Shown here one piece after another: positions 22,627 through 23,598 of a stretch of DNA of 42,002 nt; positions within the stretch are counted from its first letter, which is position 1, and the number at the start of each line of letters is the position of its first letter. A program made the translations under genes and the position numbers. This DNA comes from Candidatus Nitrosopumilus sp. (GTDB taxonomy: Archaea; Thermoproteota; Nitrososphaeria; Nitrososphaerales; Nitrosopumilaceae): assembly GCA_029881195.1 (NCBI GenBank), contig JAOUNB010000008.1, positions 1-42,002 on the forward strand. Reading direction: 5' to 3'. The notes under the pieces were generated by a model, which saw only the letters and a list, made by a program, of their open reading frames with translations, was not told the DNA's origin and did not search any database.

Positions 22627-22629
22627 AAG

Positions 22630-22703
22630 TGGGCCGAGTGAGATTCGAACTCACGATCACCGCCGTGTCGAGGCGGTATCCTAACCAGCTAGACTACCGG
22701 CCC
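22630..22703 (-). tRNA. tRNA-Val (GAC), with unusual C33
   Basis: A 74-nt cloverleaf is complete on the minus strand. The acceptor stem GGGCCGG pairs with TCGGCCC, with one G-U and discriminator A. There is a 4-bp D-stem with wobbles, anticodon stem CCGCC/GGCGG, variable loop TGATC, and T-stem GTGAG/CTCAC with loop TTCGAAT. The anticodon loop is TCGACAC, putting GAC at 22669-22667 (Val). Position 33, normally U, is C at 22670. CCA is not encoded. Shifting the loop to read CGA breaks the stem, so Val is the supported call. Confidence 0.9.
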
Positions 22704-22770: not shown

Positions 22771-23481
22771 TTGACAGATGATTTTACTGAAGACGAAAAA
22801 CGAGGCTTCTATAAGGCAATTTATTCAAGAAGAGATGTTAGATCTCATTTTACTTCAAAACCCGTAGAAGATGAGATTTTATCAAAAATTCTTCATGCCG
22901 CACACCATGCTCCATCAGTAGGATTTTCACAACCATGGAATTTTATTTTAATCAAAGATGAACAAACAAAAAAAAGGATAAAGGAATCTTTTCAAGAAGA
23001 GAAGAAACGCTCTTCACAATTAATAGATGAACCAAAAAGATCAAAATATCTTGCATTCAAGTTAGAGGGAATTTCAGAATCTCCGGTAAATTTGTGTGTA
23101 ACATATGATCCTACAAAATTTGGTCCATTTGTGATTGGTAGATCGAGTATTCCTGAAGCAGGTCTATACAGTGTATGCTGTGCAATACAGAATCTATGGT
23201 TGTCAGCAAGAACTGAAGGCATAGGTCTTGGATGGGTAAGTATACTGTCAAATGAAATTCTAAAAGAAGTTTTAGAATTGCCTGAGCAAGTAATTCCTGT
23301 TGCATACTTGTGTTTGGGATACGTTGATGATTTTGCAGAAAAGCCAGATCTTGAGACTGCAGGTTGGTTACCAAGACTTGAATTGAAAGATGTTGTATAT
23401 TTTGAAAAGTGGAACGATAAAGAAAACAAAGATTGGACAAACATTCAAAAAATGATCAGAGACAATCTTGATTACGCTTAA
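22771..23481 (+). CDS. bluB: 5,6-dimethylbenzimidazole synthase
   Basis: BluB, an FMN-dependent nitroreductase-fold enzyme, breaks down reduced FMN with O2 to form DMB, the lower ligand of cobalamin. The 236-residue protein begins with FYKAIYSRRDVRSHFTSKPV, then ILHAAHHAPSVGFSQPWNFILI, KLEGISESPVNLCVTYDP and GIGLGWVSILSNEILKEVLELPEQVIPVAYLCLGYV, a strong BluB pattern. The start is TTG. Thaumarchaea are cobalamin producers, so this fits biology well. It is followed by a T-run and tRNA-Arg. A general nitroreductase is the alternative, but the HAAHHAPSVGFSQPWNF motif argues against it. Confidence 0.92.
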   Translation: MTDDFTEDEKRGFYKAIYSRRDVRSHFTSKPVEDEILSKILHAAHHAPSVGFSQPWNFILIKDEQTKKRIKESFQEEKKRSSQLIDEPKRSKYLAFKLEGISESPVNLCVTYDPTKFGPFVIGRSSIPEAGLYSVCCAIQNLWLSARTEGIGLGWVSILSNEILKEVLELPEQVIPVAYLCLGYVDDFAEKPDLETAGWLPRLELKDVVYFEKWNDKENKDWTNIQKMIRDNLDYA

Positions 23482-23505: not shown

Positions 23506-23598
23506 GGGCTTGTAGCGCAGAGTCATTTTGACGCGCAACATGGATAGCGCAGTAGCCTCCTAAGTTACAGGTCGAGGGATCGAAGCCCTCCAAGCCCG
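23506..23598 (+). tRNA. tRNA-Arg (CCT) with a D-loop intron
   Basis: Acceptor stem GGGCTTG/CAAGCCC with discriminator G, D-stem GCGC/GCGC (23515-23518 and 23547-23550), anticodon stem GTAGC/GTTAC with loop CTCCTAA (anticodon CCT at 23559-23561), variable loop AGGTC, and T-stem GAGGG/CCCTC with loop ATCGAAG. The D-loop would be 28 nt, far too long. Removing about 18 nt (near 23521-23538) leaves AGCATGGATA, a normal D-loop. The removed part forms GTCA-TTT-TGAC flanked by GCGC/GCGC, so a bulge-helix-bulge-like intron at a non-canonical position is likely. The T-loop has A54. Confidence 0.88.
23521..23538 (+). other. probable non-canonical tRNA intron (D-loop)
   Basis: This 18-nt insert between G15 and the rest of the D-loop can pair: the intron's GCGC (23533-23536) with exon GCGC (23515-23518), and GTCA (23522-23525) with TGAC (23529-23532) around a TTT loop. 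That leaves AGA and AAC as three-base bulges. Cutting after the second base of each bulge defines these ends. The outer helix is weak, so exact edges may shift by one or two bases. Confidence 0.6.

Follow-up and report, generated by a model that had tools for sequence, protein, structure and literature searches.

Introns outside the canonical 37/38 position of archaeal tRNA genes are called rare, translocatable and probably late in the cited part of a review (PMC4390854), and the excerpted text of another review presents Thaumarchaeota as a group with alpha2-beta2 splicing endonucleases that is rich in non-canonical introns (PMC4090602). tRNAscan-SE 2.0 contains a bulge-helix-bulge (BHB) model trained on Thaumarchaeota, and the sections of its description used here give 107 non-canonical introns in Thaumarchaeota genomes (PMC8450103). 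Such introns resemble the tRNA-Arg(CCT) intron described below in being short, in lying outside position 37/38, in adopting a BHB-like fold built from exon and intron, and in their thaumarchaeal host with an alpha-beta endonuclease. Compared with the introns of those sections, the Arg(CCT) intron is without an outer helix, has a central helix of 3 to 4 bp and keeps one position across two families. D-arm introns also occur in Caldiarchaeum subterraneum, e.g. at 24/25 of tRNA-Thr(GGU), likewise in a genome with further introns; in the quoted portion of that report the C. subterraneum intron differs between strains and is associated with a mobile element, whereas the Arg(CCT) intron sits at 15/16 and is vertically inherited (PMC3293823). 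The canonical 37/38 introns of the same genome differ from it in position and are presumably processed by the same endonuclease and ligase. Non-canonical archaeal tRNA introns are a class known already, and the Arg(CCT) 15/16 intron may well be within tRNAscan-SE 2.0 output; mildly new are its deep positional conservation and its repeated exact loss. Neither a D-loop 15/16 intron of tRNA-Arg(CCT) nor its loss appeared in the literature titles and abstracts covered, a coverage that mostly excludes subscription papers.

The window, i.e. the whole stretch of 42,002 nucleotides from Candidatus Nitrosopumilus sp. analyzed here, is contig C56 of a genome of 1.59 Mb in 143 contigs. Direct reading of the sequence places the tRNA-Arg(CCT) gene with its 18-nt intron at positions 23506-23598 on the forward strand (Table 1). 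As encoded, the D-loop measures 28 nt; once positions 23521-23538 are taken out it reads AGCATGGATA, and a standard cloverleaf with a normal D-loop is restored, in agreement with the first-pass annotation, which had held that about 18 bases must leave this loop. The canonical 37/38 position is excluded as the insertion site by the uninterrupted anticodon loop CTCCTAA. ARAGORN did not report the tRNA-Arg(CCT) gene of the window, and the Rfam tRNA model (RF00005) returned just a truncated tRNA at 23528-23593 with 31.2 bits. Intron-less homologues were found by ARAGORN and scored 55.1-57.9 bits end to end with RF00005, and an intron-bearing homologue (L003) reached 50.2 bits. In practical terms, ARAGORN overlooks Arg(CCT) in the intron-bearing loci given to it. 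Within the window's own genome one match to the intron-bearing pattern and zero intron-less matches were obtained, i.e. a second tRNA-Arg(CCT) was not found. A bacterial promoter/terminator scan and an analysis of composition yielded nothing useful.

Table 1. Parts of the interrupted tRNA-Arg(CCT) gene and landmarks of its locus (window positions).
Feature	Position	Strand	Basis
tRNA-Arg(CCT)	exon 1 23506-23520, exon 2 23539-23598	+	direct reading; homologues and their parsing
18-nt intron AGTCATTTTGACGCGCAA between G15 and C16, D-loop	23521-23538	+	22 intron-less genes; sister pairs
Acceptor stem GGGCTTG / CAAGCCC	23506-12 / 23591-97	+	direct reading
G73 of tRNA-Arg(CCT)	23598	+	direct reading
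D-stem GCGC / GCGC	23515-18 / 23547-50	+	direct reading
GCGC, D-stem 5' strand (10-13) in mature tRNA; central-helix 5' strand in precursor	23515-23518	+	reading; L026 T13-A change
Intron GCGC, central-helix 3' strand, pairs with 23515-23518	23533-23536	+	pairs 11-13 88/88, pair 10 36/88
5' bulge A14 G15 ^ A; predicted 5' splice site after 23520	23519-23521	+	base conservation
3' bulge A A ^ C16; predicted 3' splice site after 23538	23537-23539	+	last intron bases across forms
Inner intron helix 5' strand GTCA	23522-23525	+	covariation
Inner intron helix 3' strand TGAC; loop TTT 23526-23528	23529-23532	+	covariation
Anticodon arm GTAGC-CTCCTAA-GTTAC; anticodon CCT 23559-61	23552-68	+	direct reading
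T arm GAGGG-ATCGAAG-CCCTC	23574-90	+	direct reading
tRNA-Val(GAC), neighbor, conserved locus landmark	22629-22703	-	ARAGORN
Nitroreductase-like ORF upstream, name from own sequence, tree marker	22771-23481	+	sequence

We assign a probability of roughly 0.93 to the reading that the insert is a non-canonical archaeal tRNA intron at 15/16, predicted to be removed by relaxed BHB cleavage and ligation. The position of the insert, its conservation, its covarying hairpin, the exact intron-less alleles and the enzyme genes behind this reading are observed. The earlier claim of an 18-nt D-loop intron thus gains support from the homologous position, the compensatory changes, the intron-less alleles and the two-subunit endonuclease. 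A far less probable reading is that the gene is a decaying pseudogene, to which we give almost no credence: the missing ARAGORN report would fit decay, yet the stems are intact with compensatory changes across 88 distinct sequences, the tRNA-Val neighbor is kept at the locus, and the genome offers one intron-pattern match for tRNA-Arg(CCT) and no intron-less match.

The occurrence of the insert was determined among relatives, the nearest of which in the named collection are Nitrosopumilus, Nitrosarchaeum, Nitrosotenuis, Nitrosotalea and other Nitrosopumilaceae, and the family searched (f1, 250 genomes) is taken to be Nitrosopumilaceae. One family search took 30 of the 250 genomes as input. A pattern allowing any sequence of 9 to 39 free bases at the 15/16 site matched 196 of the 250 family genomes and 21 of 22 genera, and the reversed control pattern gave 0 matches in the same 250 genomes. 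The intron-less pattern (GCGCAG|YWTGG) matched 30/250 genomes, of which 22 were genuine; the eight others (L163-L166, L185-L188) were discarded as false matches because their intron itself ends in GCGCAG. Genus g40 accounts for 18 of the genuine intron-less genomes, g47 for two, g38 for one and the window's genus for one (G025, L189); all 22 genes have G15 and an intact cloverleaf, with complete acceptor stem and D-stem and without an insert. Neither pattern was matched in 32/250 genomes, which are incomplete or carry variants, e.g. the D-stem GCGT in G023 (L026). Of 40 genomes examined from other families, 12 matched a combined pattern: the matching genomes of f2, f10, f14, f15 and f17 are intron-less, and four genomes of f8 bear the insert. 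In f8, whose named relatives are Nitrosocosmicus and Nitrososphaeraceae, 24/70 genomes matched and a looser pattern recovered the gene in 8 of the 46 further genomes; all readable D-arms are interrupted at 15/16, without a single intron-less case, and the gene was unmatched in 38/70 genomes. The Nitrososphaeraceae-type genes contain a different, often longer intron at the identical position, and the insert length spans 14 to 35 nt across relatives. Two bacterial matches in the collection scan (L296, L319) were rejected as chance pattern matches to ordinary bacterial tRNAs. The intron is old and probably dates back to an ancestor shared by Nitrosopumilaceae and Nitrososphaeraceae. It has remained fixed at 15/16 over two ammonia-oxidizer families despite changing sequence, length and covarying helices; since the position is kept across both, it is possible for a non-canonical intron to be of great age and stability.

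For the structural comparison, 321 rows were reduced by merging identical D-arm/intron forms to 88 family, 27 Nitrososphaeraceae-type and 6 further forms, the family and Nitrososphaeraceae-type groups being split by T-loop and not by taxonomy. The pairings named in the first-pass annotation, i.e. GCGC of the intron with the D-stem and GTCA with TGAC within the intron, are present in the window gene, as are the two three-base bulges AGA and AAC. Its description of a BHB-like substrate with a weak outer helix held for the fold and failed for the helix: beside the 3' bulge of the window gene, T8 A9 face A17 T17a without standard pairs, and the motif is relaxed (BHL-like) as judged from the predicted pairing, not a strict hBHBh' BHB. 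In the exon-intron central helix, pairs 11, 12 and 13 are standard in 88/88 distinct family forms, with one double change (C13-G to T13-A in L026) and two G-T pairs. The helix has 4 bp in the window gene, and pair 10, formed by G10 with the intron, is standard in 36/88 and non-standard in 52/88 forms. The first three inner intron pairs (2, 3 and 4) are likewise standard in all 88 forms, with double changes from G-C to A-T (3), T-A to C-G (10) and C-G to T-A (2), and the fourth is standard in 64/87. Taken together, 328/351 cells of inner pairs 2-5 are standard against a maximum of 320/351 in 2000 shuffles, a significance that is overstated as the sequences are related. For the 27 Nitrososphaeraceae-type forms the inner pairs are standard in 91/99 cells against a shuffle maximum of 78, which for related sequences is not a probability, and some of these introns (8/27) have just one or two inner pairs. 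A hairpin arising by chance is ruled out by this conservation and the compensatory changes. Folding energies are neutral across the family and give the splicing fold no preference: the splicing fold of the window gene is 1.9 kcal/mol better than the cloverleaf with hairpin (-31.0 vs -29.1 kcal/mol), and the difference has a median of 0.0 kcal/mol over 82 forms of the family, with the splicing fold lower in 37 and equal in 7.

These data bear on the idea that the insert is kept and that the tRNA has a permanently enlarged D-loop with a small hairpin. The cloverleaf D-stem and the intron hairpin are indeed compatible simultaneously, but we hold this to be very improbable, given that the pairing between exon and intron is preserved and includes a compensatory change, that the insert varies from 14 to 35 nt in length, that its exact deletion has been tolerated several times, and that the bases conserved in the bulges are in keeping with cleavage sites. 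Inserts in the D-loop would, moreover, disturb the contact between D-loop and T-loop.

The exact boundaries of the predicted intron are a separate matter. Because GCGCA is repeated on both sides of the insert, several registers are possible on sequence alone, e.g. removal of 23515-23532 (GCGCAGAGTCATTTTGAC), which would leave the D-loop AACATGGATA with A15. Such a register would also fit the truncated Rfam match, which starts at 23528 and takes the GCGC within the intron for the D-stem. It is nevertheless improbable in view of the bases at the junctions. AG occupies positions 14-15 in all family (88/88) and all Nitrososphaeraceae-type (27/27) forms, and the first intron base is A in 85/88 and 27/27 forms, respectively; the last intron base, in contrast to the invariant G15 of exon 1, varies among the 88 family forms, whose introns end in AA (70), AG (16), AT (1) or AC (1). 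All 22 intron-less family genes have G15, even where the introns of their nearest relatives end in AA, and they all agree with the cut register AG^A / AA^C predicted from the sequence. With G15 invariant the G15-C48 pair, which we take to be the Levitt pair, is kept. Both predicted cuts separate the second bulge base from the third, which agrees with a solved endonuclease-RNA complex in which cleavage occurs between bulge bases 14 and 15, i.e. after the second bulge base (PMC12397907).

The genome encodes two EndA-family splicing endonuclease genes, both above the endA cut-off of NCBIfam TIGR00324. The alpha subunit (L071) shows an end-to-end alignment to 2cv8_A and 3p1z_B, presumably crenarchaeal catalytic subunits, and its segments IDHAPF and VRKQF match the two chains at a His and a Lys, respectively, that we assume to be catalytic. 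Its Lys35-Pro36-Lys37 lies opposite KPR of 3p1z_B, which from its residue numbering would be the Aeropyrum pernix chain. The second gene (L072) encodes a relative whose matching segment contains no His, and its product is probably the structural beta subunit, for which such a lack is expected. An RtcB ligase is also encoded (E 5e-180). In the cited sections of the structural report, K44, P45 and R46 form the crenarchaea-specific loop of A. pernix, and such loops are tied to relaxed substrates (PMC12397907). By this comparison the alpha-beta endonuclease of the genome is predicted to be able to cut relaxed motifs.

In the proposed mechanism, the 5' strand of the D-stem (10-13) would pair in the precursor with the 3' part of the intron over three to four base pairs, and next to this exon-intron helix the intron would fold into a hairpin with at least three pairs, leaving AG^A as the 5' bulge and AA^C as the 3' bulge or loop. 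A heterotetrameric alpha-beta endonuclease with a Lys-containing broad-specificity loop would cut after the second base of each bulge, and the ligase (RtcB) would join G15 to C16. The D-stem, once freed, would refold as GCGC/GCGC with the loop AGCATGGATA.

Close pairs of genomes with and without the intron provide a natural experiment on the purpose of the intron and on archaeal intron loss. The intron-less locus L189 is 95% identical over 2.25 kb to the intron-bearing locus L003, and its tRNA equals spliced L019 exactly; the intron-less locus L170 is 83% identical over 3 kb to the intron-bearing L073, and its tRNA equals spliced L073. A tree was calculated from 147 distinct nitroreductase-like neighbor proteins, drawn from 272 loci of which 198 have the neighbor and 194 have it near full length. 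Five state changes are needed on this tree, three of them forced by well-supported branches; its branches are long, its inner support is weak, and the loss in g38 (L167) is absent from it. One of the five sets the outgroup apart, which leaves about four for the family, with g38 in addition. At least three to five losses of the intron appear to have occurred within the family.

The end of exon 1 (GCGCAG, 23515-23520) and the end of the intron (GCGCAA, 23533-23538) form direct repeats in register. Such repeats follow from the self-complementary central helix, i.e. the splicing-competent fold also eases exact or near-exact deletion, and slippage between them would be the obvious route of loss. 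Such a deletion is possible, but the introns of the relatives of L189 (L003/L019) and of L170 (L073) end in GCGCAA, so that slippage would leave A15, and the observed G15 is the exact spliced product. A possible, though doubtful, explanation is repeated gene replacement by a copy of the spliced RNA, either by reverse transcription and recombination or by RNA-templated repair. G15 would otherwise be explained if the intron of the immediate ancestor ended in GCGCAG, as AG terminates 16/88 distinct forms, or if A15 was corrected to G by selection. RNA-mediated replacement is proposed for another archaeal intron, that of cbf5, in the cited part of PMC2738675. If true for Arg(CCT), replacement by an RNA copy would be a remnant of gene conversion by way of RNA in mesophilic archaea.

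The first-pass annotation had also pointed to A at position 54 of the T-loop. The base is real, yet it has no tie to the intron: ATCGAAG (A54, G60) is also found in tRNA-Arg(TCT), tRNA-Arg(TCG) and one tRNA-Met of the same genome, as well as in Arg(CCT) genes that lack the intron, both within the family and in a further one. This T-loop lies at window positions 23579-23585 and recurs at the loci L053, L055 and L070, and the Arg(CCT) genes of the Nitrososphaeraceae type have TTCAAAT or TTCGAAT in place of ATCGAAG. ATCGAAG is probably a lineage signature of arginine tRNAs.

Further interrupted tRNA genes were seen in the genome. L384 (G000:C139:1580-1760), missed by ARAGORN, is a tRNA-Met(CAT) with initiator-like stems in which taking ~14 nt out of the D-loop (GGGAAGCCAG|ACTAATTAGGGCTA|GTCATCCC) gives a normal D arm, and this suggests a second D-loop intron of the genome near position 18/19. 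Also missed by ARAGORN were L387 (G000:C108:6570-6760), which resembles a tRNA-Glu(TTC) with a T-loop insert, and the disrupted tRNA gene L386 (G000:C135:850-1030). Anticodon-loop introns were reported by ARAGORN in tRNA-Gln(CTG), tRNA-Met(CAT), tRNA-Tyr(GTA) and tRNA-Ser(GGA) (loci L375, L376/L377, L378/L379 and L383), the intron-bearing Met and Tyr genes each occurring twice on different contigs. The tRNA-Val(CAC) gene at L069 (G000:C51) is 97 nt long without a canonical intron, a length that suggests another non-canonical insert.
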